Positions 4,649-25,789 of a stretch of DNA of 64,000 bases are shown one piece after another. This DNA is from an uncultured Chitinophagaceae bacterium (GTDB taxonomy: Bacteria; Bacteroidota; Bacteroidia; Chitinophagales; Chitinophagaceae). The stretch lies in the NCBI GenBank assembly GCA_937862815.1, contig CALMED010000047.1, positions 1 through 64,000 of the forward strand, in the 5' to 3' direction. Position 1 is the first letter of the stretch. Every line of letters begins with the position of its first letter. The position numbers and the translations under genes are program-made. The notes beneath the pieces are model-generated. The model ran no database searches and was not told where the DNA came from. It saw only the letters and a list, made by a program, of their open reading frames with translations.

Positions 4649-4662
4649 CACGTCCAAAAAAA

Positions 4663-4682
4663 CCGGCCCCTTACGGGGCCGG
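4663..4682. terminator. Bidirectional terminator between convergent genes
   Basis: Perfect 8-bp stem CCGGCCCC-TTAC-GGGGCCGG. Seven A residues on the left give a U-tract for leftward transcripts; a short T-run is on the right. It separates the CotH-type gene (+) from the PorP/SprF gene (-). Confidence 0.75.
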
Positions 4683-4747
4683 CGTTTCAAGCGGGAACAG
4701 GTGCTGTTGTCTGCGGTTTTTCAGTTGATGCGTTGGTGCGGCTGCAT

Positions 4748-5650
4748 TTATTTTTCCCGGGCGAGGTTATAACGGAGCATGAATTCATGCCCGAAGAAAC
4801 CGCCGTACTGGGTGTTGACAGGATTTCTGTAAACATCGAAGGAATAGCCCAGGTTGAGACCGTTGGCCAGGTTGATGCCGGCCGAAAGCATGATCTCCTG
4901 CGACCAGCGCCAGCCCACACCCCACCAGAACAGTTTCTTGTGCTCCACCCGCACGTTGGTAAGCACTTCGCTGGGCGCGTTGGGCAGGTAGATGACCAGG
5001 GCATTGGGCTTGATGACGGTTTCGTCATCCAGCCGGATATTATACGCGCCGTGGAAATAATAATGCCGGTAGAGGCGTGCCTGCGCCGTGGGGGTGAGGT
5101 TGCCCTCGTAAAACTCCAGTTTGCTCTGCACCAGCTGCGACACCGAAGCGCCCAGCTGAAAACGGTCATCGGTGTACGAGATACCAAAGCCGGCATCGGC
5201 CTTCAGCTTATTGTTGGCGGCGCCGATGGCGGGGTCGTTGCCCAACTCACGGGTAAGTTCCGCCTTGTTGAGGGAAAACTGCTGGAAACGACCCTCGAGG
5301 CCCACCGAAAAGATACCCCCGTTGCCGGTGTGGATGTGTTTGGCAAAAGACAGCTGCGCCCCGGTGCGGGAAGTGGGGCCGGTCTTATCGGAGTACAGGT
5401 ACCCCCCCAGGCCGATCTTCTGATCGGGCAGCTCGAACGAACCGAATGCAGTGGCTGTGGTGGGTCGCCCGCTGATGCCCGACCACTGGGTGCGGTAGGT
5501 AACCCCCACCATTTTCTGGAAATTAACCCCGGCCGTGGAGGGGTTGTGCAGCACCCCCTGCATGTCAAACAGCGAGGAGGTCTGCAACTGCTGGCCATAC
5601 CCGCTGAGGAACAGGCCGCTGAACAGAACGATATTGAGAAGCTTCTTCAT
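4748..5650 (-). CDS. PorP/SprF-family outer-membrane protein (T9SS-associated)
   Basis: 300 residues with a signal peptide (MKKLLNIVLFSGLFLSGYGQ). The PorP/SprF family signature follows: QGVLHNPSTAGVN near the mature N-terminus, then YRTQWSGI, GLGGYLYSDKTGP and alternating beta-barrel strands. In Flavobacterium, SprF is needed for secretion of the adhesin SprB, and SprF-like proteins are generally encoded next to proteins with type B T9SS tails. Here it lies 20 nt downstream of a 1125-residue type B protein on the same strand, matching that pairing, so its client is most likely that protein. Transcription ends at the hairpin at 4663. Confidence 0.93.
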   Translation of the reverse strand: MKKLLNIVLFSGLFLSGYGQQLQTSSLFDMQGVLHNPSTAGVNFQKMVGVTYRTQWSGISGRPTTATAFGSFELPDQKIGLGGYLYSDKTGPTSRTGAQLSFAKHIHTGNGGIFSVGLEGRFQQFSLNKAELTRELGNDPAIGAANNKLKADAGFGISYTDDRFQLGASVSQLVQSKLEFYEGNLTPTAQARLYRHYYFHGAYNIRLDDETVIKPNALVIYLPNAPSEVLTNVRVEHKKLFWWGVGWRWSQEIMLSAGINLANGLNLGYSFDVYRNPVNTQYGGFFGHEFMLRYNLAREK

Positions 5651-8600: not shown

Positions 8601-9048
8601 TGTTATCATCGGTGAACCACACGGCGTTGATGTTGCGGTTGCTGTTGAAAAAGGGCGTGGTTACAAAACTCCACGTCACACCGCCATTGGTGGTCTTGGC
8701 CATCATGCCGCCGCTGCCCACCACGTAAGCCGTATTCGTACTGACGTAATGCACGTCACTCATAACTGCAGGCAGTTGCTGGCCGGCCGCATTCACATAA
8801 GTCAGCGGTCCATACGTCCAGTTGGTACCTCCGTTGGTGGTGTAAGCCACCCCGGCCTGGCCCACGGCGATGCCTCTTGCATTATCAAAAAAATCAAGGT
8901 CCAGCACGGTGAACCCGAATGGAGTCGGGTTACTGTAACGCCAGTTGGTGGTGTTGTACGTCACCTGGCCCTGCGTAATAAGTGTAAAACAGGAAATCAG
9001 CAGCAACAGCAGGAGCCGTTGCCCTTTCCCACAGCAGTAGTTGGTCAT
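5671..9048 (-). CDS. T9SS type B surface protein with Asp-box/YCF48-like propeller and SprB repeat
   Basis: 1125 residues from the Met at 9048, chosen because it opens a typical signal peptide (LLLLLLISCFTLITQGQ); the frame stays open upstream but that stretch is antisense to the neighbour. About residues 30-800 hold at least nine Asp-box/BNR-type turns such as TTNGGTNW, TTNGGVTW, TRNGGASW, TEDGGKTW and TTDGGATW, expected to form beta-propellers like YCF48/sortilin folds. Then comes a SprB-type repeat (NGGIAPYRYSINGG), two Ig-like domains, and a C-terminal type B domain (KAFTPNGDGIN, VFNRSGMTVY, DGTYYYKI) that directs export through the T9SS. Probably a large surface or released protein with ligand-binding propellers. 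It heads an operon with the PorP/SprF gene. Confidence 0.92.
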   Translation of the reverse strand: MTNYCCGKGQRLLLLLLISCFTLITQGQVTYNTTNWRYSNPTPFGFTVLDLDFFDNARGIAVGQAGVAYTTNGGTNWTYGPLTYVNAAGQQLPAVMSDVHYVSTNTAYVVGSGGMMAKTTNGGVTWSFVTTPFFNSNRNINAVWFTDDNTGYIGGQWNTPDSIPKLYVTRNGGASWDSLAAPIGGKTRVGYINNPNLAPLIWDVTAKGKEIWRIEFTSSGVGYVTGGGQVHFPPIPAANASTCLPTGGTVGTSANNAALVWKFQNGVLTDYSLSKERLGYSGINTNTVTCGTQYNAAAIAPAIQQYRALSIINDNQIVLMSFNNNCVVRVNTGPADNTVNLATGQPEQGRYEILNFPFPPTQGPNAGPPIPNPQVLNASNPYQLRRASNGKLFSSGNFARMWTSVDNGNNWVEESSLPKGENFSTFATWALEITPTGRFISAGSNGVWADSVPGGQWRTPYKTVPLVVTHFEMEFPDCNNGMAVGGPSVTVTEDGGKTWQDKRRQDFANLNIAINGLAYPIPGMAYLVTNAGTIYNTTDKGTTLDPLYNNVALQFDDVDASGKDTVWAVAYSAFSVPAASRTTTIVRSYNGGASWQTFGGFPVGTTAPRFSRMSFGSRTVGYIAGSRNAVYKTTDGGATWTNISPFPALNNGPTGFPNAFVTYTEIQALDANTVVVIGNMFTNTGIRRVYRTTNGGTTWTDITGNLATDAPGNIVGLRMHDANNGYVTSGSQLFKTTDGGATWIKDVSPTGNIFETMSFAPSKVLPSVSMQNRILFVTGIAAPQANGTIMEYGDTTLLKMSVSETTTNASCTSPNSGTITVTVNGGIAPYRYSINGGPFQTSNVFTGQSQGPKTLTVQDAYCGLITKTVTVGFNNNLTVTATPADTSVCAGAPVQLRATGNATAYLWTPGAGLSAGNISNPVARVNAPTVYTVRATTSACTTTATVRISIRPNPVITAGPDKTILVGSKATLEGVANLATATSIRWTPAATVVAGAGTLTPSVSPITNTVYTLTVVNNENCTSTDNVLVTVIPVCVDPMKAFTPNGDGINERWLVTNGTACVSRVSVTVFNRSGMTVYKNDNYQNDWDGTFNGKAVPDGTYYYKIRYNLINGAVAEKSGDVTIIR

Positions 9049-9116
9049 TGTAGCGGGTTTTAGAAAAGAAAAGTTCAATTGCGGGACAAGGTTACTGCAG
9101 GTGCCGCGTATCATTT

Positions 9117-9132
9117 GTAGAATTAATTCTAC
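9117..9132. promoter_or_regulatory. Perfect 16-bp palindrome in a divergent promoter region
   Basis: GTAGAATTAATTCTAC is an exact inverted repeat, centred in the 129-nt gap between two divergently transcribed giant T9SS genes. Its length and position fit a dimeric regulator operator, but no regulator is identified. Confidence 0.5.
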
Positions 9133-9177
9133 CAACGTTCTTACTTTATTGTCGAAATCTTTGAGCTTTGGTACACC

Positions 9178-12100
9178 ATGCGCACCTCCCTGCTCCATAT
9201 CATCCGGCTTTTTTTCCTGCTCCTGGCGGGCTTTACCGCCGTTCAGGCACAGGACCTCTCCAACCGGGGGCGGGAGTTCTGGCTGGGCTACGGTTTCAAT
9301 TACAGCTTTTTTCACGAACCACCCATCAATAACCAGGACCTGCAGCTCTATATCAGCGCCCAGCAGGCCACCACGGTCACCATCACCATCAACGGCACCG
9401 CCTACAGCCAGACCCTGAACATACCGGCCAACACGGTGGACTTTTCCGTGATCATTCCCAAGTCGGGGGCCAACGATGCCCGCATCACCGATGAAGGGCT
9501 CTTCAACCGCGGGATCCGCATCGTGAGTACCGAACCGGTGGCTGTATACGCCCACCAGTACAACGTGCAGGTGTCGGGCGCCACCATGCTGATGCCGGTG
9601 GAGACCTACGGCTACTCCTACTATTCGGTGAACTACAGCCAGACCTCCTCCAACTCCAACCCACCCTCGTGGTATTCCTGGTTTTTTGTGATTGCCTCCG
9701 AAGACAATACCCGCATCCAGATCACCCCGTCCGACACCACCAAGAACGGGTGGCTGCCCGGGCAGACCTATACCGTAAACCTGAACAAGGGGCAGATATA
9801 CAATGTGATGGGCAAGGGCGTTTTCGGCACCAGCGCGGCCCTGGCGAGCAAAGACATGACGGGCAGCAAGATTGTTTCGGTGCCCGGGGCCGACGGCAAA
9901 TGCCACCCGGTGGGCGTTTTCTCCGGTTCGGGCGGCATCCGCCTCTGTCCGGGCGACGGCGGCGAGTACATGGGCCAGCAGATGTTCCCGGCCCGCGCCT
10001 GGGGTACCCGCTACCTCACCTACCACCTCACCAACACCACCACGGGTAACTTTTTTGCCCCCTTTCTCAATTATTACCGGGTGTGTGTACTGGATCCCAC
10101 CACCGTGGTGCGGCGTAACGGGGTGCCCTTGACGGGACTGATCCGGAATTTCTACTACGAATTTTCCAGCACCACCGGCGACTACATCGAATCCGACAAA
10201 CCCATCCTCGTTTCGCAGTACACCCCCAATGCCAACCAATGCGTGGGCACCAGCACGTTCTCCTACGGCGACCCCGAGATGGTATACCTCAGCCCCATTG
10301 AACAGGGGCAGAACGACGTGCTGTTTTACAAAAGCCGCCGGTCGAGCATTGACTTTGTACACACCAACATCTACCTGCCCACCGCAGCCGTGGGATCGCT
10401 GCGGGTGGACGGCGCCGCCCTGCCTGCCGCCAACATCATTCCGCACCCGGCCAATCCCGCCTACTCGGTGGCAGTGGCCCGGCATACCGGCCCGGCTTCG
10501 TCGCACCGCATTACCTGCGACTCCAACTTCAACGCTACCGTGTACGGTATCGGGTTATTCGAAAGCTATGGCTACAACGTGGGTACCCGCATCAACAACC
10601 TCAACAACTTCAGCAGCATCGCCAACACGCTCAACAGCACCGGCCTTGTTGATACCTTCACCTGTCCCAAAACACCCGTGCGCCTCTTCGCCAAGCTGGC
10701 TTTCCCCGCCAGCTCCATCACCTGGCAGCTGAGCGCGGTGAGCGGCGTTACCCCCAATGCCGATGTCGTCATCAACAACCCCGTTCCGGTACGCACCGAA
10801 CGCATCAACAACCGCGACTACTACGTGTACTCACTGAACCAGGATTTTGTATTCAGCAGTCCGGGTACCTACACCATCCCCATCACCTATTCGGCAGCCG
10901 TGATTGAAAACTGCAACCAGACCGACTTTGCCGAGATCCGGGTGCTGGTGAAACCGGGGCCGGTGGCCGATTTCCGCGTGGCGGGGCAGGGCTGCGCTGT
11001 GGACACCCTGTTTTTTGAGGGCACCTCCGATAAGAAGAACTTCAACATCGTGGGCTATCTCTGGAATTTTGAGGACAACACCACGCAAACCACGGAAAAC
11101 GCTGCCAAGAAATTCAGCAACACCAACCCCCAGCAGGTGAAGTACACCATACGGGCCGACAACGGCTGTATCCACGACACCACCAAGACGGTGCTGCCCA
11201 ACAGCCAGCCCCTGGCCAAATTCGGGCTGCCAGCCAGCTATTGCGCCGGCGACTCCATCCGGGTGACCGACAGCTCCGTGATCAACAGCGGCAGCATCGT
11301 GAACTGGCGCTGGGACTTCGGCGACGGCCGCGTGGTGAACGCTTCCAACGGGAACCCCTTGTCGCACCGATACGCCGCCACCGGCACCTACACCATCCGC
11401 CTGGTAGTGACCTCCGCCGAAGGATGCGTGAGCGACACCGCCGCACAGACCGTTACCATCACCAACCGGCCGCAGGCGCGGTTTGGCACCGGCACAGCCC
11501 CCTGCCTGGGAGAAGCCCTCCGCTTCAGCGACAGCTCCACCATCACCAACGGCACCCTCACCCGCTGGAGCTGGAACTTCGGCGACGGCAACACCGCCAC
11601 CTACACCAACGGCAACCCGTTCGACTATACCTACGCCACGGCCGGCTCCTACACCGTGCAGCTGGTGGTGCAGAGCGGCACCGCCTGTACCGATACATTC
11701 ACCCGCAGCATCACCATCCAGCCCCGGCCGGCCGCCGCCTTCAGCAGCAACCCCACCGTGTGCCAGGGCAGTGCGCTCACGTTTACCGATAACTCCACCA
11801 TCGCCTCCGGCAGTATCACCAGCTGGAACTGGATTTTTGGCGACGGCAACAGCAGCAACCGCACCAGTGGCGCTCCGTTCACGCATACCTACACCAGCCC
11901 CGGCAGTTTCACGGCCGCCCTGGTGGTGCGCAGCGGCAACGGCTGCAACAGCGATACCGTCAAGCAGAGCATCACCGTCTTTCCCCGCCCGGTGGCCAAC
12001 TTCGGATTCGACCAAAGCAGCTGCCGCAACCCCGGCGAACCCGTACGCATCAGCGACAGCTCCGCCATCGCCTCCGGCAGCATCACCAGCTGGAACTGGA

Positions 12101-13803
12101 ACTTCGGCGACGGCAACAGCGCCAGCTACACCAACGGCAATCCGTTCGACTACCTCTTCCAGGGAACAGGCAGTTACCCGGTGAAACTGGTAACCGTGTC
12201 CAATAACAACTGTGCCAGCGATACCACCACCAAAACACTGGTGGTATCGGTAAAGCCCGTGGCCGGGTTCAACCTGAGCAAAAACGAGGCCTGCGCCGGC
12301 GATACCATCCGCTTCACCGATAACTCCACCATCGCAGGCGGCAGCATCACCACCTGGAACTGGGACTTCGGCAACGGGCAGACCAGCATCCGCAACAACA
12401 ACTCCCCCTTCATCTTTGCATTCAATACGCCGGGCACGTTTACCATCACCCTGCGGGTAACTTCCGCCGGCAACTGCGACAGCGACCCCGTCACCGCCAC
12501 CGTCACCATCCACGAACAACCGCAGGCATCCTTCATCACCGGCGGCACCGTGTGTACCGGCGATTCCGTGCTCTTTACCGGCTCCGCCACACCCGGCACC
12601 GGCAGTATCACCGGCTGGAACTGGAACTTCGGCAACGGCACCACGTTGGTACGCACCACGGCACAACCCTTCTACTACACGTACCCGGCTGCCGGCAACT
12701 ACAGCGCCAGCCTGAGCGTTACCAGCGACAAGGGCTGCGCCAGCCCCGCCTTCACCGTACCGGTGCAGGTAACGGCCCGTCCTTCCGCGGCGTTCACCGT
12801 CAGCGGAAAACCCTGCGCCGACAGCCTCTACACCTTTGTGTCGGCCACGCCCGCCAACAACAACCCCGCTGCCACCTGGTACTGGGCTTTTGGCGACGGG
12901 CAAACGGCCACCTCGGGCAACAGCAACACCATCAGCCACCCCTATGCCGTGCGGGCGGGTGGATATACCGTCACCCACGTGGTGCAGTACAGTCCCTCCT
13001 GCGTAAGCGATACGGTGCGCTTCACGCTGCCGGCCATCCGGCCCAACCCGGTTGCTTCTTTCAGCATTGCGGGCGATACACTGTGCGTGGACAAGCCCCT
13101 GCTGTTGCAGGCCGCGTCCAGCGCTCCCGCAGCCCAATGGAACTGGGACCTGGGGAACCGCACCAGCAACCAGGCACCGCCCTTTACCATTCAGTATGCA
13201 GCAGGCGGCAATTACACCATCCGGTTAACCGTGACCGATAGTGCCGGCTGCGGATCGGTACCGGTGAACAATGCGGTGGCCATCCGTCCCGCACCGGTGC
13301 TCAACGCGGGACCCGACAAATACATCAATCCCGGCGGGTCGGTGGTGCTGGATGCCACCTGCTCCAACGCGGGCGATTACGATTTCCGGTGGACGCCCGC
13401 CACCGGTCTGAGCAACAGCACCACGCTCACCCCCACCGCTTCGCCCGACACTTCCACCCGCTACGTGGTGCAGGCCGTACACCGTACAGCACTGTGTACC
13501 GCCACCGATGACGTGGTGGTGTTCGTGATTTCGAAGCTCTTTGTACCCAACGCCTTTACCCCCAACGGCGACGGTGTGAACGATCTGTGGCGCATACCGG
13601 GGCTGGAACTGTATCCCGATGCGGAACTGGTACTGTTCAACCGCTGGGGCCAGCAGGTGCTGCGCTCCCGCAACTACAACCGCAACCCGTGGAACGGTAC
13701 CCTCGGCGGGAAGGAAGTGGCGCCGGGCCTGTTTACCTATATCATTTTCCTGAATAACGATCAAAAAGAAGTCATGCGGGGCACGGTTACCCTTATCCGG
13801 TAA
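9178..13803 (+). CDS. Giant IgGFc-binding/PKD-repeat surface protein, T9SS type B
   Basis: 1541 residues. Signal peptide (FFLLLAGFTAVQAQ) then an IgGFc-binding N-terminal-type domain of about 450 residues, opening with SNRGREFWLGYG and containing AHQYNVQ, METYGYSYYSVNY and GTRYLTYHL. From about residue 595 to 1390 nine PKD-like modules follow, each starting like VADFRVAG, AAAFSSN or VASFSIAG and carrying the WNFGDGN core. An Ig-like segment (LNAGPDKYINPGGSVVL) precedes the type B tail from about 1453 (FVPNAFTPNGDGVND, LFNRWGQQV, GTVTLIR). Expected to be exported by the T9SS and act as a surface adhesin; ligand unknown. It is the first gene of a likely four-gene operon and is paralogous to the gene at 14453. 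Confidence 0.93.
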   Translation: MRTSLLHIIRLFFLLLAGFTAVQAQDLSNRGREFWLGYGFNYSFFHEPPINNQDLQLYISAQQATTVTITINGTAYSQTLNIPANTVDFSVIIPKSGANDARITDEGLFNRGIRIVSTEPVAVYAHQYNVQVSGATMLMPVETYGYSYYSVNYSQTSSNSNPPSWYSWFFVIASEDNTRIQITPSDTTKNGWLPGQTYTVNLNKGQIYNVMGKGVFGTSAALASKDMTGSKIVSVPGADGKCHPVGVFSGSGGIRLCPGDGGEYMGQQMFPARAWGTRYLTYHLTNTTTGNFFAPFLNYYRVCVLDPTTVVRRNGVPLTGLIRNFYYEFSSTTGDYIESDKPILVSQYTPNANQCVGTSTFSYGDPEMVYLSPIEQGQNDVLFYKSRRSSIDFVHTNIYLPTAAVGSLRVDGAALPAANIIPHPANPAYSVAVARHTGPASSHRITCDSNFNATVYGIGLFESYGYNVGTRINNLNNFSSIANTLNSTGLVDTFTCPKTPVRLFAKLAFPASSITWQLSAVSGVTPNADVVINNPVPVRTERINNRDYYVYSLNQDFVFSSPGTYTIPITYSAAVIENCNQTDFAEIRVLVKPGPVADFRVAGQGCAVDTLFFEGTSDKKNFNIVGYLWNFEDNTTQTTENAAKKFSNTNPQQVKYTIRADNGCIHDTTKTVLPNSQPLAKFGLPASYCAGDSIRVTDSSVINSGSIVNWRWDFGDGRVVNASNGNPLSHRYAATGTYTIRLVVTSAEGCVSDTAAQTVTITNRPQARFGTGTAPCLGEALRFSDSSTITNGTLTRWSWNFGDGNTATYTNGNPFDYTYATAGSYTVQLVVQSGTACTDTFTRSITIQPRPAAAFSSNPTVCQGSALTFTDNSTIASGSITSWNWIFGDGNSSNRTSGAPFTHTYTSPGSFTAALVVRSGNGCNSDTVKQSITVFPRPVANFGFDQSSCRNPGEPVRISDSSAIASGSITSWNWNFGDGNSASYTNGNPFDYLFQGTGSYPVKLVTVSNNNCASDTTTKTLVVSVKPVAGFNLSKNEACAGDTIRFTDNSTIAGGSITTWNWDFGNGQTSIRNNNSPFIFAFNTPGTFTITLRVTSAGNCDSDPVTATVTIHEQPQASFITGGTVCTGDSVLFTGSATPGTGSITGWNWNFGNGTTLVRTTAQPFYYTYPAAGNYSASLSVTSDKGCASPAFTVPVQVTARPSAAFTVSGKPCADSLYTFVSATPANNNPAATWYWAFGDGQTATSGNSNTISHPYAVRAGGYTVTHVVQYSPSCVSDTVRFTLPAIRPNPVASFSIAGDTLCVDKPLLLQAASSAPAAQWNWDLGNRTSNQAPPFTIQYAAGGNYTIRLTVTDSAGCGSVPVNNAVAIRPAPVLNAGPDKYINPGGSVVLDATCSNAGDYDFRWTPATGLSNSTTLTPTASPDTSTRYVVQAVHRTALCTATDDVVVFVISKLFVPNAFTPNGDGVNDLWRIPGLELYPDAELVLFNRWGQQVLRSRNYNRNPWNGTLGGKEVAPGLFTYIIFLNNDQKEVMRGTVTLIR

Positions 13804-13832: not shown

Positions 13833-14447
13833 ATGTCGCAAACCGCCATCCTCATCGCCGATGATCACAGCATGATCCGCAAAGGACTCAAACTGTACCT
13901 CCAGCTCAACCTGGGACAGGACGACCTCACCGAAGTGGGGAGTTGCCACGAGGTGATGAAAGAGCTGGTGAAGAAAAAATACACGCACCTCGTACTCGAC
14001 ATCCTGCTGGCCGACGGCAGTTCGCTGGAAATCATCCCCAATATCCGGCGCGTATATCCAAACCTGCAGATCCTGATCTTTTCCATGCAGCCGGCGGAAG
14101 TGTATGCCGAAGCGCTGCGCCAGTACCAGGTCAACCAATACCTGTCGAAGACCGCCAGTGAAGATGAAATCATACGGGTATTGACGCTTTTCATCCACAA
14201 CCAGCCGCAGACAGTGGTCCTTGAAGGCATGACACGACGCGACAATCCTTTCTCCGCCCTGGCTCCCCGCGAGCTGGAAGTGCTGCACTATGTGCTGCAG
14301 GGGCTGGGCACCAAGGGCATTGCCGAAACCCTCAACCTCAAAATGAATACCGTCTCCACCATCAAGACCCGCATCTACGAAAAAACCAGTGCCGCCAACA
14401 TCAGAGAACTGCTGGAGCTGGCGAGCCTGTACAACGTGAATTACTGA
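13833..14447 (+). CDS. LuxR/NarL-type response regulator
   Basis: 204 residues. An N-terminal receiver domain (acidic ADDH at 10-13, phospho-acceptor Asp56 in LVLDILLADGSS) is joined to a C-terminal LuxR-type helix-turn-helix (LAPRELEVLHYVLQGL, GIAETLNLKMNTVSTIKTRI). It would be phosphorylated by a histidine kinase and bind promoter DNA. It sits 29 nt after one giant IgGFc/PKD gene and 5 nt before the other; a sensor kinase without its own receiver follows as fourth gene and is the natural partner. By position it may control these surface proteins, which is inference. Confidence 0.93.
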   Translation: MSQTAILIADDHSMIRKGLKLYLQLNLGQDDLTEVGSCHEVMKELVKKKYTHLVLDILLADGSSLEIIPNIRRVYPNLQILIFSMQPAEVYAEALRQYQVNQYLSKTASEDEIIRVLTLFIHNQPQTVVLEGMTRRDNPFSALAPRELEVLHYVLQGLGTKGIAETLNLKMNTVSTIKTRIYEKTSAANIRELLELASLYNVNY

Positions 14448-17400: not shown

Positions 17401-17530
17401 CTACAACCAGCGTCCGTGGGACGGCACCTACGGCAACCAGCCGGTACCCGCCGGAACCTATCCCTATCGCATCCTGCTGAACAACGATGCCGGTGAAAGC
17501 CGCAGCGGCATGGTGACTGTTGTGCGCTGA
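14453..17530 (+). CDS. IgGFc-binding/PKD-repeat surface protein, T9SS type B (paralogue)
   Basis: 1025 residues, a shorter paralogue of the protein at 9178. The IgGFc-binding-like domain is well conserved (SNRGREFWLGYGHN, AHQYGDV, METYGYSYYSLNY, GTRYLTHPSK), but only three PKD-like modules follow (VAGFTTSG, VAAFTGPA, VAAFTAAS; about 602-865) before the Ig-like segment (LQAGADKSIFAG) and the type B tail (FIPNAFTPNGDGLND, IFNRWGQELL, GMVTVVR). The ATG at 14453 gives a long N-terminal region before the hydrophobic core; an in-frame GTG at 14501 would give a more compact signal peptide (NLPRLHIILFLLLTGC) and may be the true start. It starts 5 nt after the response regulator. Confidence 0.9.
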   Translation: MVPIPVPAILYLFPLHVNLPRLHIILFLLLTGCWLQSAGQNRSNRGREFWLGYGHNVLFTQGNPPNSQNLVLYLSTEQPATVTVSVNGTGWSRTVSIPANSVDAGIVVPKSGADDARLLGEGLSGRGIHIRSDVPIVAYAHQYGDVSSAATMLMPVETYGYSYYSLNYTQVSNYPDSYSWFFAVASEDNTRLEITPADSTQGGWLPGQTYTVLLNRGQIWNVFGKRSGTYTGKDLSGSKIVSVTGPDGNCHPVAVFSGSSRNVLCDGNGGDILQQQIFPANTWGTRYLTHPSKVEAGQGVTTPFLNIYRIAVRNPGTVVKRNGAVLTGLINNFYYEFTSLTGDYIEADQPVLVAQYPGSANGCAGTASPVMGDPEMLYLSPMEQGVKKAVFYHTRNQAIDINYVNVIVPKTGLSSLRIDGTAPLAIETADHPALSSYAVVQKRLTGPAAQHTITCDSSFIAHINGSGFFESYAYNVGAFVNNLNAYSYIENTLSSTGGADSFTCPGAPFRLYARLAYRVTRLVWGAGQVSGISPGRDTVQLNPVPEDSLLLNGRRYYTYRYPGELRAQQAGTFEIPVTCSAPDIDACNQTETVFLPVVVREGPVAGFTTSGNTCAGDTLFFTGLVNAAGFTINRYRWTFPGNSFADVKDTSRVFPASGSYDVFFRITSTNGCFSELGKTLTIAPLPVAAFTGPAEGCSGAALTFTDASTAGTGSIAGWNWGDGSSTTSTTGSAVSHSYAVGTYTVGLQVVSAAGCRSQTAVQNVVVHPNPVAAFTAASAACAGDTLRITDASQAATAPLERWNWNLGDGNTVAAGNGNPVQHRYTNAGTYTIRLQVEDSRGCSSPLAGNNLTVHPLPDLQAGADKSIFAGSSVVLDAAVSNPNDHTFAWTPATGLSDAAVLNPVARPAATTRYTLSATHRSRGCRSTDEVLVTVLAGLFIPNAFTPNGDGLNDAWRIPGLDLYPAAEVIIFNRWGQELLRRRNYNQRPWDGTYGNQPVPAGTYPYRILLNNDAGESRSGMVTVVR

Positions 17531-17621
17531 GACAGGAATTTTCCCAACGGGCGTGTGGCTGATTTTTTTGCCACTGAAAACCATAATCTCCTGTGCTTAT
17601 GCTGTAACTTGTTGGCCGCAC

Positions 17622-20600
17622 ATGATCCGCTGTTTTCTTATCCTGCTCTGCCTTGCGCCGGGGCTGCCGGCCATGGCCCAACCCGGTGGCATCACCGTAC
17701 GGCATTACTCCACCGAAAACGGCCTGCCGTCCAACGGCATCCAGGGGATGCAGTGGGATGAAGCCAACCGTTTCCTGTGGCTGGCCACCGAGGCCGGTTT
17801 TGTACGGTTCAACGGGGCCGAGATGAAAAGCTTCAGCCGCCAGAACACCCCCTTCATTGAAAGCGAACGCACCAGCTTTTTCATCCGCAACCTTCAGGGA
17901 AAAATGCTGGGATCGGATATGCGGGGCAACCTGCTGCAGGTGGCGGGTAACCGGCTGGAACCTTACCCGTTTTCGATGTCACGGGAAAGAAACAACTGGG
18001 GACAGTACCGGCTGTTGATGGCCTCCGATTCCCTCTACACGGCAGGATTCCGTTGGTTCAGTAAAATGCGGCCGTATTTACTCATTGCCCACCTTGTGCC
18101 GCTATCCGACACGTCCTGCCTGTTACTTCAGCAGCCAGGTTTATTTCACTTCACGGCCGGGCAAGACGAACCGGTTGAAATGCCGGCCGGCCGGGAGCTG
18201 AAAAAAATTTTCGTGGCAGGCGATGCGGTCTATGGTCTGAACCAACGGGGTCAGGCTTTCCGCATTGGCAACAACGGAGCAACCGTGGAACCGGTTACCG
18301 TTTTGCAAAACGGCAACCGCCAGCCCCTCCTCCTGAATCCTTCCCGGCTCTTTTGGGAAAGCGGCATGCCGGCCCCGTTGTACCTGGAAGATGGCATTTG
18401 CCGGTCGCTGGAGAAAACGAAAGAAGGGTTGCTGGCAACAACCTTGTTCCGCGGTATTGAAGTGGACGCGTTGGTGCGGCACCTGCAGTACAGCCCCGCA
18501 CTGCAACTCCTCTTCCTGGGCACCGAGTCCAAAGGCCTCTACATCGTTCAACCGCAGCAGGTACAGGTGTACAAAGCCGACAGAAAAAAACAACAGGTCC
18601 GCAACTCGCATTATGCCCAGGTGGTATTGCCGGGGGGCAATGTGCTCACCAACGAAGGGGTGGAGCTGGGACCCTTTCCGCCCGGTACCCCCACGCTGCC
18701 CATCAGCGGCAAGTTTATTTTCTCCACACAGTTGAGCGGCGACTCCCTGCTGTGGTTCGCCCAGCAGAGTGGTAAAAACGATATCGTATGCCTCAACCAA
18801 TACAATAAACGAACAGGCCGGCACACCGCGTTTCCGCACATCCGGATCCGGGAACAATACGGGTTGGTCACCACCGCGGCCGGCACCTTCCTGGCCAATG
18901 AGCAGGGACTGGCCCGGCTGGAGGGCGACAGCCTCCGCTTTCTGTTCCGCCACCGGGGAAGCTCATCAGATCTGCTTACCTACGAACTGCTGGAAAGTGC
19001 GCCGGGCGAGCTGGTGCTGGCCGGATGTTTCGGGTTGCTGCGCTACCGGCTGGCCACGGGGCAGCTCGACACCCTGTACAACAAGGAAACCTACTGTGTA
19101 CGCAGCATCCGGAAGCTGGGCGACTACCTGTTCATCGGCACTTACGGCGACGGCTATTACATCTGGAAGGACGGCGTGCTGCGGTCCATGCCCGCCGACA
19201 AAAACCGGTACCTGCTGTACACGCACTGTTTTATGCCCGACAGCAACGGGTATGTGTGGATGAGCACCAACCGGGGATTATTCAAAGCCCGGCTGGCCGA
19301 TATCACCACCGCTTTTGAAACCGGCGGCGATGTGGTATACTATCACTACTTCGGGAAAAACGACGGAATGCAGACCACCGAACTGAACGGGGGCTGTACC
19401 CCCTGCGCCGTGCGGGTTCCCGACGGGCGGTTTTCCTTCCCGTCCATGGACGGCCTGGTATGGATCCACCCGGAGCAGGCACAGCCCATCCTGCCGGAAG
19501 GGGATATCTGGATAGACGAATGGGAGGTGGAAGAACAACGGTACCTCCTTACCGGAGACAGCATCCCCGTTCTGCCGGCGGGCACCCGGGAGCTCACCCT
19601 CCGCCTGGCGGTACCTGCCTGGGCCCACCCCGAGAACCTGTACCTGGAATACCGGCTTCAGGATACGGCCGCCTGGCGGCTGGTACGTGTGGAACAGGGC
19701 ATGAAACTGCAGCTGGGCAACCTCTCATATGGGCGCCACCGGGTACAGCTGCGCAAACGCAACGGCTTTGGCAGCGGCAACTTCAGCTACCTGTCCTTCA
19801 CCTTCCGCATCCGCACGCCCTGGTACCTGCAGTGGTGGTTCGTGCTGCTGGCGGTAATGGGTACGGGTGGACTGATCACCGGCGCTGTGTACCTGCGCAT
19901 CCGGCAGTTACGCCGCATCCAGTACCGGCTGGAAACCCTGGTGGCACAAAAGACACAGGAGCTGCAGCGGCAAAACACGCTGCTGGAGAAAAACGACACC
20001 ATTAAAACGCGGCTCATCTCCATCATCAGCCACGACATTGTAACACCACTGAAATTTGTAGCCGCCGCCGGGCGCAAGCTGGTGGCCAATAAGGCGCAGA
20101 TGAGCGAGAGCCTGCAACAGGAAACCATCCGGGAGATGACGCATACGGCCCAGGACCTGCAGCTGCTGTCCACCAACATCCTCAACTGGATCAAGTACCA
20201 GAATAAAAACCGGCGGATGGTGCAGGAGCCGGTACAGGTGAAGGCACTGGTGGACCAGATCATGGGCGTGCTGCAGATCATGGCCCGCGAAAAAGGACTG
20301 GAACTGTGCAACGAAACCGATCCGGCGCTGGAGCTCGTGCAGTTTGCCGAGCCCCTGCGCATTCTCGTTTACAACCTGCTGTCGAATGCCATCAGTTTCT
20401 CCGACCGCGGCACTATCACCGTCTTCAGCACCCGCAACGAACAACTGGTGCGCCTGCATGTACGCGACGAAGGCATTGGCATGATGCCGGAACAGGTGCA
20501 GAACCTGTTGTCGGAAGACTACGTGGTGGTGAGCCCGGGCAGCGACCAGCGCAGGGGCAACGGGCTGGGGTACCTCATCATCAAAGACCTGCTGCAGCTG

Positions 20601-20696
20601 ATGCAGGTGGGCATGGAAATACAAAGTGAAAAGGGAAAAGGCACCGAAGTAACCCTGCTTTTTCTGCGCAAACAACCGGAAGAAACCCCGGCCTGA
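17622..20696 (+). CDS. Sensor histidine kinase with periplasmic two-component propeller
   Basis: 1024 residues from the ATG at 17622, chosen for the signal peptide MIRCFLILLCLAPGLPAMAQ. The periplasmic part opens with HYSTENGLPSNGIQGMQWD, typical of the Reg_prop/two-component propeller, and continues as repeated beta-propeller blades to about 660, then a Y_Y_Y-like domain (YLEYRLQDTAAWRLV). One membrane segment (about 733-757) leads to a dimerisation coiled coil and a HisKA domain with His804 in ISHDIVTPLK, then an HATPase domain (NLLSNAISF, DEGIGM, GNGLGYLI). There is no receiver, AraC or LuxR domain, unlike many Bacteroidota hybrids, so the LuxR regulator two genes upstream is the likely partner. 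The stimulus is unknown. Confidence 0.9.
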   Translation: MIRCFLILLCLAPGLPAMAQPGGITVRHYSTENGLPSNGIQGMQWDEANRFLWLATEAGFVRFNGAEMKSFSRQNTPFIESERTSFFIRNLQGKMLGSDMRGNLLQVAGNRLEPYPFSMSRERNNWGQYRLLMASDSLYTAGFRWFSKMRPYLLIAHLVPLSDTSCLLLQQPGLFHFTAGQDEPVEMPAGRELKKIFVAGDAVYGLNQRGQAFRIGNNGATVEPVTVLQNGNRQPLLLNPSRLFWESGMPAPLYLEDGICRSLEKTKEGLLATTLFRGIEVDALVRHLQYSPALQLLFLGTESKGLYIVQPQQVQVYKADRKKQQVRNSHYAQVVLPGGNVLTNEGVELGPFPPGTPTLPISGKFIFSTQLSGDSLLWFAQQSGKNDIVCLNQYNKRTGRHTAFPHIRIREQYGLVTTAAGTFLANEQGLARLEGDSLRFLFRHRGSSSDLLTYELLESAPGELVLAGCFGLLRYRLATGQLDTLYNKETYCVRSIRKLGDYLFIGTYGDGYYIWKDGVLRSMPADKNRYLLYTHCFMPDSNGYVWMSTNRGLFKARLADITTAFETGGDVVYYHYFGKNDGMQTTELNGGCTPCAVRVPDGRFSFPSMDGLVWIHPEQAQPILPEGDIWIDEWEVEEQRYLLTGDSIPVLPAGTRELTLRLAVPAWAHPENLYLEYRLQDTAAWRLVRVEQGMKLQLGNLSYGRHRVQLRKRNGFGSGNFSYLSFTFRIRTPWYLQWWFVLLAVMGTGGLITGAVYLRIRQLRRIQYRLETLVAQKTQELQRQNTLLEKNDTIKTRLISIISHDIVTPLKFVAAAGRKLVANKAQMSESLQQETIREMTHTAQDLQLLSTNILNWIKYQNKNRRMVQEPVQVKALVDQIMGVLQIMAREKGLELCNETDPALELVQFAEPLRILVYNLLSNAISFSDRGTITVFSTRNEQLVRLHVRDEGIGMMPEQVQNLLSEDYVVVSPGSDQRRGNGLGYLIIKDLLQLMQVGMEIQSEKGKGTEVTLLFLRKQPEETPA

Positions 20697-21299: not shown

Positions 21300-21968
21300 T
21301 CAACGTGTTAACCCCGTAAATAAGTGAATATTATTTTGTACATACCAGATCAGCTGGGTGGATTTATTCAGCCCCAGCTTCTGGTAGATGTGGTGCCGGT
21401 GCACCTCTACGGTTTTGGGGCTGATAGAGAGCTTTTCGCCAATCTGGCGTGAGCTGAGTCCCTTGTACACAAGGTATGCAATTTCCCGTTCCTTTATTGT
21501 AAGCGCCCCCTGTATTGTTGCCGGCCTGGAAGAGCTTGCCCCCAGAAACAATCCGGCTACAGAATCCTTCACCTCCCTGCACTGGAATCTTTTCCCCTGC
21601 AGGATGGTGGCAATAGCTTCGTTTACCTCTTCCAATCCGGACGTCTTGGTGATAAAGCCGTGTACACCGGAAGAAAAAGCCTTCTTTACAGTTACAAGGT
21701 CCGTGTAGGCAGACACAACGAGATACTTTGTGAAAGGTGAAATAGCTTTGAGATCTGGCAGCAGGTCAAGGGACGATCCATCTGCCAATGCAATATCCAG
21801 CAACACAACATCCGGCTTGTGCTCAGTTACAGCGGATGCAAGTGAACTGCAGTCACTTACCCGCTGCACAACCTGGTAATTCTCATTCTTTGCAAGCAGT
21901 ATCTGCCACATTTCTGCTATCAATATATGGTCGTCGGCAATAAGGATACGAACTGGATTCACCTTCAA
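21300..21968 (-). CDS. LuxR/NarL-type response regulator of the H-NOX cassette
   Basis: 222 residues. Receiver domain with acidic ADDH (11-14), phospho-acceptor Asp58 in VVLLDIALADGSS, and the conserved Lys region GFITKTSG. The C-terminal LuxR-type HTH contains LTIKEREIAYLVYKGLSS and PKTVEVHRHHIYQKLGL. It lies 137 nt downstream of the hybrid kinase on the same strand and has its own promoter-like sequence just upstream. The kinase ends in an Hpt domain, which would pass phosphate to a separate receiver; this protein is the evident acceptor. It is thus the predicted DNA-binding output of the haem sensor pathway. Target genes are not visible. Confidence 0.93.
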   Translation of the reverse strand: MKVNPVRILIADDHILIAEMWQILLAKNENYQVVQRVSDCSSLASAVTEHKPDVVLLDIALADGSSLDLLPDLKAISPFTKYLVVSAYTDLVTVKKAFSSGVHGFITKTSGLEEVNEAIATILQGKRFQCREVKDSVAGLFLGASSSRPATIQGALTIKEREIAYLVYKGLSSRQIGEKLSISPKTVEVHRHHIYQKLGLNKSTQLIWYVQNNIHLFTGLTR

Positions 21969-21985
21969 ATGATTTTATGTTTCCC

Positions 21986-22014
21986 GAAAGATATTTTAAT
22001 TATCTATGTACAAA
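21986..22014 (-). promoter_or_regulatory. Promoter-like sequence for the response regulator
   Basis: Read on the minus strand: TTTG (22014-22011), 17 nt, then TATCTTTC (21993-21986), seven of eight matches to the Bacteroidota -7 consensus TAnnTTTG. The predicted transcript would start about 10 nt before the start codon at 21968. Confidence 0.45.
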
Positions 22015-22105
22015 AACCATCTGCACGGGATATAGTTTAATTTTTTTTAAATTCATCCATGAGACCGCCTATGTAAATAAGTGCAAGCACATATATAACC
22101 GGCTG

Positions 22106-25100
22106 TTACCGGATGCCTTCCATGATTTGTTCAAATCTTCCGGACAGCTGCCGCAGTATGGAGTCGGGTAACCGCAGGTCCTTCCTGCTCCGGATCCTTG
22201 TTTCGGCTGCCACAATCAACGCTTCTGTTTCGTAGAGTGCCAGCATGCGGGCAAGGGGCTTCAGCTGGTGCAGAGCCCTGGCTATAGCGTCTGTATCTGC
22301 ATACTGCTGTGCTTCCTGCAGCCTGTTCAGTAAAACCGGAATATTCTGGCGCAACAATATTTTCATTTGTTCAAGGAATGCCGGGTCGTCCGACATGCCT
22401 GAAAAGTAACGGAGATGTTCCGGTTGCAGCGACGTGTTTTCGTCGGGGAGCAAGCTGCCCCTTTGGGATCCGGTTTCAAGTACTGTTGCTATTGCCTTTT
22501 GCAACTCCTGTTCGTTATACGGCTTCGTAACATAACCGTTCATGCCTGCGGCCTTGTATAGTTCACGGCTCTCCTTCATTGCATTTGCAGTAATGGCTAT
22601 GATGGGAACCGAAGACCAGCTCTTCCCCGATTTCCGGATTGCCTTCGCCGTATCAATACCATCCATTACCGGCATTTCAATATCCATAAGAATGATGTCG
22701 AACGGAGATTGCTCCATTGCCTCCAGCACCTGTTTGCCCGTTTCAGCGAGCTGGAACGAACAATCCCATTGACCAAGGAGGTGTTGCAATAAAAACTGGT
22801 TGATGGGATTGTCTTCGGCAGCCAGTATCCGCAGACTTTTCCGGACTTCAACCGGAAGAACGTCCGGTGCTGTTGACTCTGCCTGCTCAGATAATCCGGC
22901 AAGGGGTAACGTAAGATGCAGGGTAAAATCCGAGCCTTCGCCGGGTTTGCTTGCTACGTGAAGACTGCCGCCCATCAATTGAGCAAGGTGCCGGCTGATG
23001 GCCAGTCCCAGCCCGGTGCCACCATACTTCCGGGAAATCGCAGATCCGGCCTGTGTATAAGGTTCAAAGATGGCATTGAGTGAATGTTGCTCTATACCCG
23101 TTCCCGAATCGGAAACAACGATACTGAATTCACAATTACCACCGTTCCTTTCAAGGATATTCAATTGAATCCGGATTCCGCCCTCTGCGGTAAACTTAAC
23201 CGCGTTGCTGAGCAGGTTATTCAGAATCTGCCGTATGCGGAATGCATCACCGGCAACCGGCACAACTTCTGCCGGAGCATCATACGTGAAACGCACATTC
23301 TTCTCAGCAGCCAGTAAGGCAAACGGAGCTGCGGCCTGCCGGATAAGTTCCACCAGGTCAAACCTGATTGACTCAGGCTCTATGCTGCCGTTTATGATTT
23401 TTTCAAAGTCCAGCACATCGTTCACAATCCGCAACAACTGATTTCCGGCCGACCGGATCATTTCCGTATATGCCTGCTGCTCGGCCTGTAATGCTGTTTT
23501 CAACAGCAATTCGGTTACGCCGAGTATTCCATTCAACGGTGTGCGGATCTCATGACTCATGGTGGCAAAAAAGCGTTCTTTTACCGAAGCTTCCTCAGCT
23601 GTTTGTCGCAATGCTTCCTGCAGTTGCTGTTCCATTTTTTTCCGCTCGGTTATATCAATGCCATAGCCGATAACCATTTCGATGTTCTGGTGGCTGTTCA
23701 ATACGGGAAAAAATATCCGAAGGTGGTGCTCCAGGTTTCCGTCCGGCAGCCGGAGCTCCTCTTCAAACCGCTGCGGCATCTTATCCTGCAGTAATTGCTG
23801 AAAAAGCTGCCTGCGGTTCAGAAAGACGGCGGGCTCTTTCCCTGTATGCAAGCGGTAATCCTCATCTGTTTTCCCGATCAGCCACCCGCGTACTGCAGGA
23901 TTTTTCACTGCCCGCGGATTTAAAAAGAGGTATTCCTGCCTCTTATTAAAAACAGCTATATCGGCGGGCAGGTTATTCAGGATGTCTTCATAAAATGAAC
24001 GTTGTGCATGCAGGGCTTCCTTGGCGTTTGCTTCAACAGTAATATCGTCGTACACCCATAAATGCCCCATGTATTGCTGCCCGTTATATATGGGAATGAA
24101 GTCCCGGCTGAAAACCCGGCCATCCTGCAGTTCCAGCAGGTCGGCCTTAGCCACTTCCCGCTGCAGCAGCAGGTGACGGATGCGCTCTGTAAATGCATCA
24201 GGATCCTTAAATAAATGTTTGGACTGCCCGGCCGCTTCAGAACAATCTGTACCCGTGAGCTGGGCGGGCGAAGCCGGTATTCCAAACATGTCGCAGAAGC
24301 GTTGATTCACCAACTCAATGGTGCAGTTTTCGTTTTCCAGCAGCACCCCGGCCTGCAGGTTTCCAATCAATGCACCCAGGCGGTTGGCCGTTCCTTCCAG
24401 GTGCAACGCAAGCTGTTTTAAATCCGTCACATCCCGGCTGTAGATGTTAATGTAGTTCTCGCCCGGCAAATGAAAACAGTTGAACGAAAAAAGCCGGTCG
24501 CCTGCAGCCGCCTCCACTACCAACCTTCCCTTAGCGGCGCTGGTTTCCGCTGCCACCGCATTCAGGAAGACGGCAGGAGTAAGTTGTTTTCCGTTGTATA
24601 CAATGCGGGAGGGCAGTCCGTCAGCAGCCGGATTCTGCATAAGGATGGCACCTTCGAGGTCAATCCGGAGCACCGGGTCCGGATCCTGCATCGGAAGTGA
24701 TGCAATCTGCTCTTTCTCTTTAACGGCTTCCTGCAGTAAACGGCTTTGTTCCGCCATTTTCTCGTACAGATCCCGGATGTCGCGGGTCGCAATTTCCTGG
24801 GTATGCAACAGGTGCAGCAGATCCACCAACGGATCATGTGGCGCAAAATCATTCAGGGTCAACCCGGCAGCGGTTACTTCGTCCATTCCCGAATACCAGG
24901 GGGAGCCAAGGAAAACAACCTGTGTGTCGTCCAGCACTTCAAACTGACCCCGCAATAATATTCCTTCTTTTTTCGTGAACCGCACAATGGCCAGCTGGCC
25001 GGCCAGCCCGGCCAGCGATGAAAAACTGCTTACCTCATCTGCGGGTCGGTACAATTCAAACAACTCCGCGAAACGGCAGCCGGCAACGGAACCCGTAAGT

Positions 25101-25207
25101 TTTTCCAGCGACTGGCCGGCGGACCGGATCACCAGTCCTTCACTCATCAACAGATGAAAGGGGAAAAGCCGGTGCATCTGCCCGGTGCGAAAGAAGAGTC
25201 CCATCAC
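22106..25207 (-). CDS. HNOBA/PAS hybrid histidine kinase with receiver and Hpt domains
   Basis: 1033 residues, no membrane segment, hence cytoplasmic. Residues about 10-165 match the HNOBA (haem-NO-binding-associated) domain of soluble guanylate cyclases: RLFPFHLLMSEGLVI, LRGQFEVLDDTQVVFLGSP, GLTLNDFAPHDPLVDLL, then a coiled coil. Three PAS-like regions follow (about 170-260, 275-390, 405-520). The HisKA box has His552 (SHEIRTPLNG); the HATPase has NNLLSNAVKF, DSGTG and GGTGLGL. A receiver (about 790-905) has Asp842 in LMDIEMPVMDG. A C-terminal Hpt-like helix bundle has His980 in LHQLKPLA. Predicted relay His552 to Asp842 to His980 to the LuxR regulator downstream. It overlaps the upstream H-NOX gene by 4 nt, so the two are translationally coupled and the HNOBA domain is the obvious docking site for H-NOX. 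Confidence 0.93.
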   Translation of the reverse strand: MMGLFFRTGQMHRLFPFHLLMSEGLVIRSAGQSLEKLTGSVAGCRFAELFELYRPADEVSSFSSLAGLAGQLAIVRFTKKEGILLRGQFEVLDDTQVVFLGSPWYSGMDEVTAAGLTLNDFAPHDPLVDLLHLLHTQEIATRDIRDLYEKMAEQSRLLQEAVKEKEQIASLPMQDPDPVLRIDLEGAILMQNPAADGLPSRIVYNGKQLTPAVFLNAVAAETSAAKGRLVVEAAAGDRLFSFNCFHLPGENYINIYSRDVTDLKQLALHLEGTANRLGALIGNLQAGVLLENENCTIELVNQRFCDMFGIPASPAQLTGTDCSEAAGQSKHLFKDPDAFTERIRHLLLQREVAKADLLELQDGRVFSRDFIPIYNGQQYMGHLWVYDDITVEANAKEALHAQRSFYEDILNNLPADIAVFNKRQEYLFLNPRAVKNPAVRGWLIGKTDEDYRLHTGKEPAVFLNRRQLFQQLLQDKMPQRFEEELRLPDGNLEHHLRIFFPVLNSHQNIEMVIGYGIDITERKKMEQQLQEALRQTAEEASVKERFFATMSHEIRTPLNGILGVTELLLKTALQAEQQAYTEMIRSAGNQLLRIVNDVLDFEKIINGSIEPESIRFDLVELIRQAAAPFALLAAEKNVRFTYDAPAEVVPVAGDAFRIRQILNNLLSNAVKFTAEGGIRIQLNILERNGGNCEFSIVVSDSGTGIEQHSLNAIFEPYTQAGSAISRKYGGTGLGLAISRHLAQLMGGSLHVASKPGEGSDFTLHLTLPLAGLSEQAESTAPDVLPVEVRKSLRILAAEDNPINQFLLQHLLGQWDCSFQLAETGKQVLEAMEQSPFDIILMDIEMPVMDGIDTAKAIRKSGKSWSSVPIIAITANAMKESRELYKAAGMNGYVTKPYNEQELQKAIATVLETGSQRGSLLPDENTSLQPEHLRYFSGMSDDPAFLEQMKILLRQNIPVLLNRLQEAQQYADTDAIARALHQLKPLARMLALYETEALIVAAETRIRSRKDLRLPDSILRQLSGRFEQIMEGIR

Positions 25208-25746
25208 CAGCTTAATTGAAAGATTTCATGATCAGCTCCTGCGTTACGGTGCTGCAGTATTTCAATCTGCAGGTTGGCCTGAAACATTTTCCCCAAGCCC
25301 TGGAGCAGGCCGCAGACAAACGGTTGCAGGCCCTCCCTGGTGGAATAATAATGCAGCCGGAGCGAATTGGTTTCCACATGACTGACCCTGAACTCAGGCG
25401 GAGTAAGGCGCGGGTAAATCAACTGGATGCGGTTGTGAAATTGCGGCAGGTTGACCAGGAACTCCCGCAACGTGCTTCCACCGGCTTCCATCAGGTGGCT
25501 GTACTTTTCTTTCCCGGTTTTAAGCACCCAGTACTCGCCAAATGCTATCAACACATCGGCAAGCGGAATCTGCATCTCGTCTGCAACAGACCGGGCCAGC
25601 CGGAAGGTGAGCGCATCATCGTAGGGTTCATTGCTGATAAAAAAGTCTACCTCCACACCGCTGCGTAACTTGATCCTATCCCAGGCCTCTTCTCCAAACT
25701 GTTCCTTCACAAGATCTTCAATGGCTTTGTTTACAAGTCCGTACAT
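25204..25746 (-). CDS. hnoX: H-NOX haem-based nitric oxide sensor
   Basis: 180 residues, the normal length for a stand-alone H-NOX protein. The opening MYGLVNKAIEDLVKEQFGEEAW is typical. The proximal haem ligand is His104 (LPQFHNRI); the conserved proline is Pro117 (LTPPEF, 13 residues on, the same spacing as His102-Pro115 in the Thermoanaerobacter protein); the haem-propionate motif YxSxR is Tyr133-Ser135-Arg137. The residue at the position of the O2-stabilising distal Tyr140 is Pro142, so no tyrosine is available there, which favours NO rather than O2 binding (inference from the family). Gas binding would alter the kinase encoded by the overlapping downstream gene. Confidence 0.95.
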   Translation of the reverse strand: MYGLVNKAIEDLVKEQFGEEAWDRIKLRSGVEVDFFISNEPYDDALTFRLARSVADEMQIPLADVLIAFGEYWVLKTGKEKYSHLMEAGGSTLREFLVNLPQFHNRIQLIYPRLTPPEFRVSHVETNSLRLHYYSTREGLQPFVCGLLQGLGKMFQANLQIEILQHRNAGADHEIFQLSW

Positions 25747-25781: not shown

Positions 25782-25789
25782 CAAAGTTA
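25782..25789 (-). promoter_or_regulatory. Promoter -7 box for the H-NOX operon
   Basis: TAACTTTG on the minus strand is an exact match to the Bacteroidota -7 consensus TAnnTTTG, 35 nt upstream of the H-NOX start. The -33 element is weak (TTTC about 22 nt further up). The rest of the 246-base gap to 25992 shows no gene. Confidence 0.45.

Follow-up and report, generated by a model that had tools for sequence, protein, structure and literature searches.

A Putative H-NOX/HNOBA-Kinase Phosphorelay with a LuxR-Type Output Regulator in an Uncultured Chitinophagaceae Bacterium

Introduction

The stretch of DNA analyzed here (the window) comprises the first 64,000 nucleotides (nt) of contig CALMED010000047.1 (assembly GCA_937862815.1) from an uncultured bacterium of the family Chitinophagaceae (Bacteroidota). 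At positions 21300..25746 of its minus strand it carries a cassette of three genes for an H-NOX protein, a hybrid histidine kinase with an N-terminal HNOBA domain, and a LuxR-type response regulator. We consider it probable that this cassette forms a phosphorelay that senses a gas, most likely nitric oxide (NO). An initial annotation made from the sequence alone had already proposed that the three genes form an H-NOX/HNOBA-kinase/LuxR phosphorelay, and this reading, as far as sequence can tell, is well supported and was strengthened by the comparative evidence presented below. Literature cited by PMC number was consulted in excerpt.

Gene Order and Domains of the Cassette

The order of the three genes, their common strand and their coordinates were exactly as initially annotated. 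The first gene (25204..25746; minus strand, as for all cassette features below) encodes a putative heme sensor of 180 amino acids (aa), which matched the HNOB model (PF07700) with 162.4 bits against a Pfam cut-off of 25.5. The second gene (22106..25207) encodes a hybrid histidine kinase of 1033 aa, counted from a GTG start codon, with the domain order HNOBA-PAS-PAS-HisKA-HATPase-REC-Hpt. The PAS-like HNOBA (H-NOXA) domain and its following helix occupy residues ~1-171 (24695..25207), followed by two PAS domains (residues ~276-390 and ~410-523; 23639..24382; Pfam PAS_9/PAS_8 and PAS_4), by HisKA with the phospho-acceptor His552 and HATPase_c (22907..23581; 74 and 96.1 bits, cut-offs 26.9 and 26.4), by a receiver domain with Asp842 (22490..22828; Response_reg, 92.9 bits, cut-off 30.2), and by a histidine phosphotransfer (Hpt) domain with His980 (22127..22363). 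The third gene (21300..21968) encodes the response regulator, in which a receiver domain with Asp58 (Response_reg, 66.9 bits) precedes a LuxR/GerE DNA-binding domain (GerE, 59.8 bits). The relay chain that had been traced through His552, Asp842 and His980 of the kinase to Asp58 of the regulator was recovered at these same residues, and the three kinase residues were invariant in all 18 aligned HK-REC-Hpt hybrids.

The H-NOX Protein and Its Likely Ligand

The closest solved relatives of the H-NOX protein were the Nostoc Alr2278 structures (PDB 2o09 and others), with 80 of 179 aligned residues identical (45%). In H-NOX proteins the proximal histidine and the YxSxR motif serve in heme binding, and the window protein keeps both, as His104, Tyr133, Ser135 and Arg137 align with Nostoc His105, Tyr134, Ser136 and Arg138. 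Owing to this identity and to the conservation of His104 and YxSxR, NO is the likely ligand of what is predicted to be a heme-binding protein. Trp73 is also conserved, and Nostoc Met144 is replaced by Phe143; position 143 presumably corresponds to that of the distal tyrosine (Tyr140 in Thermoanaerobacter). Passages of PMC12329717 describe H-NOX proteins without a distal tyrosine as forming no stable complex with O2 and as acting NO-dependently on kinases or on enzymes of cyclic di-GMP (c-di-GMP) turnover. The proximal histidine was kept in 15 of the 16 H-NOX proteins aligned (the window protein and 15 relatives). The exception, which has a phenylalanine in its place, is an H-NOX protein that adjoins an HNOBA kinase (L090, 7850-8443, plus strand).

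The same cassette might report another cue, with H-NOX serving as a redox or CO sensor or acting via heme loss, and with the relay passing on that state. Responses to oxidation are known from other H-NOX proteins, among them a heme-free form from Vibrio cholerae that acts via zinc-site cysteines (PMC8738867, in excerpt), and a paper on the closest solved relative, Nostoc H-NOX, asks in its title 'Is Nostoc H-NOX a NO sensor or redox switch?' (a title cited in PMC12329717). The window protein, however, holds a single cysteine (Cys145), which excludes a Vibrio-type zinc redox site with its three cysteines, and it retains both the proximal histidine and YxSxR. We regard a cue other than NO as rather improbable, and NO as the preferred ligand.

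The HNOBA Domain and Its Pairing with H-NOX

The N-terminus of the kinase matched the Pfam HNOBA model with 73.5 bits (cut-off 23.4). In a sequence comparison with the PDB, kinase residues 1-186 matched the beta1 subunit of soluble guanylate cyclase (E-value 2.8e-7) and the PAS domain of a Nostoc punctiforme histidine kinase (2p08/2p04; E-value ~1e-6). An AlphaFold2 model of residues 2-175 had a mean predicted local distance difference test (pLDDT) score of 85.1, and all 23 PDB matches of this predicted fold at E-values of 0.001 or below were alpha or beta subunits of soluble guanylate cyclase or the Nostoc punctiforme kinase PAS domain. The initial annotation had singled out the attachment of HNOBA to a histidine kinase. 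The domain does lie N-terminal to HisKA/HATPase, but the arrangement has a precedent in Nostoc punctiforme, where the structure of an HNOBA-type PAS domain from a signal transduction histidine kinase has been solved (2p04/2p08; PMC2904703 and PMC2828450, in excerpt).

HNOBA had also been named the natural docking partner of H-NOX, and a survey of HNOBA-kinase neighborhoods in Bacteroidota had been suggested. Of 46 HNOBA frames drawn from three search rounds, 32 (window included) were immediately preceded by an H-NOX gene on the same strand, and the other 14 lacked an adjacent one. The survey thus upheld the pairing as the usual one but not as that of a dedicated partner. Thirteen of the 14 genomes concerned had no HNOB match at all and one (G272) had HNOB elsewhere; six of the 13 are listed as 99-100% complete, and the absence is less sure in the other seven because no completeness is listed for them. 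For one kinase (L079) only 402 nt of upstream sequence precede the contig end. Across 248 genomes of the order, among the matches listed, 21 genomes had both HNOBA and HNOB, 6 had HNOBA only, 24 had HNOB only, and 197 had neither, a co-occurrence far above chance (Fisher p = 4e-13, relatedness ignored); in this set at least 27 genomes had HNOBA (hand-sorted) and 45 had HNOB above the cut-off.

HNOBA matches that were confined to the C-terminus of the profile (from ~120-150) and had no adjacent HNOB were dropped as probable coiled coils. L050 was dropped as a false HNOBA, and L076 had no HNOB or HNOBA frame by profiles; G089 was kept on a joined HNOBA score of 38.8 bits together with separate HNOBA profile support, and G263 was not counted as HNOB (below the cut-off, five stops). 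Three loci were excluded because they duplicate others (L056, L057 and L064, copies of L043, L044 and L055, respectively), both members of the near-identical pairs L074/L075 and L055/L063 were counted, and the fragment L072 was included among the 46 and placed outside the HNOBA tree. The neighborhoods of G115, G122, G151, G183 and G206 lay outside the survey; their HNOB and HNOBA coordinates are adjacent.

The frames without adjacent H-NOX bear on an alternative in which a separate signal is sensed by HNOBA and the two PAS domains, so that the kinase would take its main input from elsewhere and H-NOX would act as an accessory modulator. Besides the 14 frames and their mostly HNOB-less genomes, it is favored by close kin that share a layout with and without H-NOX (L086 with NtrC, H-NOX and kinase; L071 with NtrC and kinase), and by the adjacency of H-NOX, which changes at least eight times on the best HNOBA tree; the well-supported branches alone force fewer changes (4, with the label 'HNOB'). 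A search for H-NOX remnants beside orphan HNOBA kinases gave nothing convincing in the 8 gaps covered (best E-value 0.047). The position of H-NOX directly upstream and always on the same strand in the 32 remaining frames argues against this alternative, which we judge unlikely while granting it some weight; an H-NOX protein that governs the HNOBA kinase is the reading preferred here.

Two other arrangements of the domain were observed. L084 (7598-9483, plus strand) encodes an H-NOX protein, a free-standing HNOBA protein of 197 aa without attached kinase, a second H-NOX protein and a PAS kinase. Upstream of the H-NOX-less HNOBA kinases of L055 and L063 lies a gene for a 469-aa PAS protein (3903-5312 and 525-1934, respectively, both plus strand). 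The L055 protein has a receiver domain above the cut-off, and no Pfam family matches its residues 1-140 at an E-value of 0.001 or below. The 469-aa protein could be another input.

The Output Regulator

Among the 18 full HNOBA...HK-REC-Hpt hybrids, a LuxR regulator just downstream on the same strand was found in the window and in Lacibacter cauensis only, and 11 had an NtrC-type regulator within three genes upstream. In two Flavobacterium loci (L062 and L066) a receiver, H-NOX, an HNOBA kinase, a small Hpt gene and a receiver-LytTR gene follow one another as separate genes, with Hpt matches of 20.0 and 23.1 bits that are both below the cut-off of 24.6.

The regulator was searched for in 59 genomes including the host genome, in 17 of which no more than 50 first-look candidates were scored. 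Within the 58 relatives its one clear ortholog was that of L. cauensis (231 bits, 49% identical), which occupies the same position in the cassette, next to an orthologous kinase; the next-best match scored 140.9 bits. The host genome was placed in the same genus group as L. cauensis (G009). In a quick tree of the 18 hybrids calculated from the HisKA-to-Hpt region, the kinase cores of the window and of L. cauensis formed one clade on a long branch, with a Shimodaira-Hasegawa-like approximate likelihood ratio test (SH-aLRT) value of 99. The remaining 16 hybrids, among them the 11 with NtrC-type neighbors, fell outside this clade. Because the sole clear ortholog of the regulator sits in the L. 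cauensis cassette and the kinase cores form a clade of their own, the comparison supports the view that regulator and kinase belong together.

Regulator and kinase are separated by an AT-rich gap of 137 nt (21969..22105) with weak consensus matches only, which may hold a separate promoter for the regulator. Such a promoter would suit an alternative in which the LuxR regulator merely adjoins the H-NOX operon and serves another kinase, located elsewhere or, for example, encoded by the large kinase gene at 17520-20696 (plus strand). The latter encodes a 1058-aa HATPase protein with a propeller match below the cut-off, lies on the opposite strand and ends ~600 nt beyond the regulator. Yet in the 19 kb around the L. 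cauensis cassette, where the regulator is present, the HNOBA kinase alone matched the kinase core (BLAST), and the regulator ortholog and the kinase-core clade are common to the same two genomes. Service to another kinase is very improbable in our view, and the HNOBA kinase is the preferred partner. No shared motif was evident by eye between the upstream intergenic regions of the window and L. cauensis. The nearest paralog of the regulator in the host genome (C2:25539, 37%) lies near a separate kinase gene and a receiver gene.

The HNOBA tree, in which L. cauensis groups with L043/L054, and the kinase-core tree were also considered as a sign of shuffling between input and transmitter domains; such shuffling is not claimed here, given the result of the approximately unbiased (AU) test below.

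Proposed Mechanism

In the mechanism that we propose, NO would bind the ferrous heme of H-NOX, and the bond to His104 would break or be strained. The changed H-NOX protein would then dock on HNOBA, as one separate protein on another, and act on this N-terminal part of the kinase and on the helix that follows it, much as the PAS/coiled-coil region of soluble guanylate cyclase is acted on by the H-NOX domain of that enzyme. This contact would set the rate of autophosphorylation at His552, from which the phosphoryl group would pass to Asp842, to His980 of the Hpt domain and finally to Asp58 of the LuxR-type regulator, which in its phosphorylated form would change transcription. As for the sign of the response, we lean somewhat toward inhibition of the kinase by NO-bound H-NOX, because NO-bound H-NOX inhibits HnoK in the H-NOX/HnoK pairs studied (strongly so for the Fe(II)-NO form, according to a passage of PMC12329717); the parallel with guanylate cyclase would predict activation instead.

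Several observations count against this mechanism. The Hpt match is marginal (25.9 bits versus a cut-off of 24.6). HNOBA may have a role of its own, to judge from the 14 frames without adjacent H-NOX, and Nostoc H-NOX has itself been discussed as a redox switch, as the title cited in PMC12329717 indicates. The co-occurrence of regulator and kinase involves two genomes only, the kinase-core branches of both are long, and the tree tool flags the place of the long row as unsure. The HNOBA tree does not recover the window and L. cauensis as sisters, but a clade of the two is not rejected by the AU test (p = 0.179). Finally, the 137-nt gap possibly places the regulator outside the H-NOX/kinase operon and, together with a weak terminator-like hairpin at the kinase stop (5 such matches in the region versus 5.8 in shuffles), means that co-transcription of the regulator with the kinase is not established.

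The cassette is the sole HNOB and the sole HNOBA match in the host genome (3.89 Mb; listed as 100% complete and 8.51% contaminated). The initial description of a self-contained gas-signaling pathway is plausible.

Start Sites and Neighboring Genes

H-NOX and kinase genes are in contact, as initially annotated, but the 4-nt overlap given there applies to the GTG start only. The junction at the kinase start reads GTGATG, and the ATG directly after the GTG (at 25204, giving a kinase of 1032 aa) forms TGATG with the H-NOX stop codon. Because the corresponding junction in L. cauensis is TAATG and the HNOBA alignment supports the ATG, the kinase probably starts there, with an overlap of 1 nt. The regulator likewise probably starts at a GTG two codons inside the TTG that the mechanical rule selects, since the alignment with its L. 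cauensis ortholog points there; Asp58 would then be numbered Asp56. Upstream of H-NOX, TAACTTTG (25782..25789, minus strand, 36-43 nt before the start codon) is a candidate element of the TAnnTTTG type, which we take to be a promoter element in Bacteroidota; the match is weak, as 5% of mononucleotide shuffles of this 246-nt stretch also yield one.

A second REC-LuxR regulator is encoded on the opposite strand ~7 kb from the cassette (13833-14447, plus strand). It adjoins a gene for a large PKD/IgGFc-binding-like protein with a type IX secretion signal domain.

FIST (NosP-Type) Genes near HNOBA Kinases

FIST genes were found within three genes of an HNOBA frame at 3 of the 46 loci, namely L043 and L059, which also have H-NOX, and L054, whose genome has no HNOB match. 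L054, from the same genus as the host, is the one case of the 46 in which FIST takes the place of H-NOX beside an HNOBA kinase (FIST gene at 12276-13415 upstream of the gene for a 1532-aa kinase at 7290-11888, both minus strand), and it is sister to L043, which has both sensors. L059 (7453-13504, plus strand) comprises H-NOX, the HNOBA kinase, FIST, a second kinase and a small Hpt gene (21.7 bits, below the cut-off) in a row, and thus two kinds of NO sensor and two kinases. According to excerpts of the literature, a published neighborhood network places FIST genes close to H-NOX genes (PMC8738867), and a Burkholderia FIST protein controls the adjacent kinase in an NO-dependent manner (PMC12570481).

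These three loci are the basis of a broader reading, in which the Bacteroidota HNOBA kinase would be an exchangeable hub for two unrelated NO sensors, taking its input from H-NOX (window), from H-NOX and FIST (L043, L059) or from FIST in place of H-NOX (L054), and with its transmitter end matched to an output regulator of the LuxR, NtrC or LytTR type. As a joint claim we put this forward tentatively and think it more doubtful than probable. FIST does not need HNOBA, as indicated by L116, where FIST accompanies a PAS-HK-REC-Hpt kinase (no HNOBA by Pfam) and an NtrC regulator.

Among the matches listed in the order survey, FIST was carried by all 6 genomes with HNOBA and without HNOB versus 49 of the 197 other HNOB-less genomes (p = 3e-4, relatedness ignored), and by 11 of 13 HNOBA-without-HNOB genomes in the wider set, which includes those 6. 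An action of FIST in trans on H-NOX-less HNOBA kinases was considered and rejected, as the FIST genes there have a kinase of their own next door (11 of 11 in 11 regions from 10 HNOBA-without-HNOB genomes versus 6 of 9 in other regions; the comparison left out G001 and one further FIST gene of G089). The association of FIST with HNOBA can be explained at least as well by a common NO biology.

The window has no FIST match and thus no FIST sensor beside the kinase; the nearest FIST gene lies ~53 kb away on the same contig. There, four tandem FIST genes (host contig C47, 78475-82837; L077, 13980-16000, and L078, 302-2921), which are all the FIST matches of the genome, are flanked by genes for a 344-aa and a 1969-aa kinase. 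They are a possible multi-sensor array of the NosP type.

Significance and Comparison with Known Systems

H-NOX/kinase pairs and HNOBA kinases are already known, and the cassette is a less common make of a known system, a little-studied variant in which all parts are familiar and their combination is not. A literature search by titles and the beginnings of abstracts, which most subscription papers lay outside, found no description of a fused HNOBA relay with a DNA-binding output in Bacteroidota. HNOBA is, in our judgment, a poorly understood link between heme and catalysis in the human nitric oxide receptor. In the cassette it would couple two separate proteins to a kinase output, each step of which is open to assay, and its kinase relatives have H-NOX, FIST, both or neither adjoining, so that the role of HNOBA and its need for H-NOX become directly testable. 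The cassette also points to gas control of transcription in Bacteroidota.

Like the window kinase, the Nostoc punctiforme histidine kinase (2p04, 2p08) bears HNOBA, with a fold that agrees with the one predicted here, and Nostoc Alr2278 (2o09 and others) is closest to the window H-NOX by sequence; the Nostoc comparison covered these two components. The genes for the Nostoc HNOBA kinase and H-NOX are presumably neighbors. Animal soluble guanylate cyclase shares the succession of H-NOX, HNOBA (PAS) and helix/coiled coil, but in the window H-NOX is a separate protein and the predicted output is a phosphorelay rather than a cyclase.

In the H-NOX/HnoK systems of Shewanella, Vibrio and Caulobacter, as is proposed for the window, a separate H-NOX protein controls a histidine kinase (PMC8738867, PMC12329717), and in the Vibrio H-NOX/HqsK system the kinase is a hybrid that feeds LuxU (PMC8738867). 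The HnoK and HqsK systems studied feed c-di-GMP turnover or quorum sensing, as far as these excerpts describe them (PMC8738867, PMC12329717). The window differs in the fusion of receiver and Hpt to the HNOBA kinase and in its predicted output through a LuxR-type DNA-binding regulator. NosP (FIST)/NosK systems likewise have a separate gene for a heme NO sensor beside that for a histidine kinase (PMC12570481, in excerpt), but FIST is a family different from H-NOX. EvgS/BarA-type hybrids share the HK-REC-Hpt chassis with a LuxR-family regulator, a combination also found in BvgS/BvgA. The models for TorS, BarA and ArcB matched the window kinase and those for EvgA and UvrY the regulator, all far below their cut-offs, so that no named-family cut-off was reached, and the window differs from these hybrids in its H-NOX/HNOBA/PAS input module.

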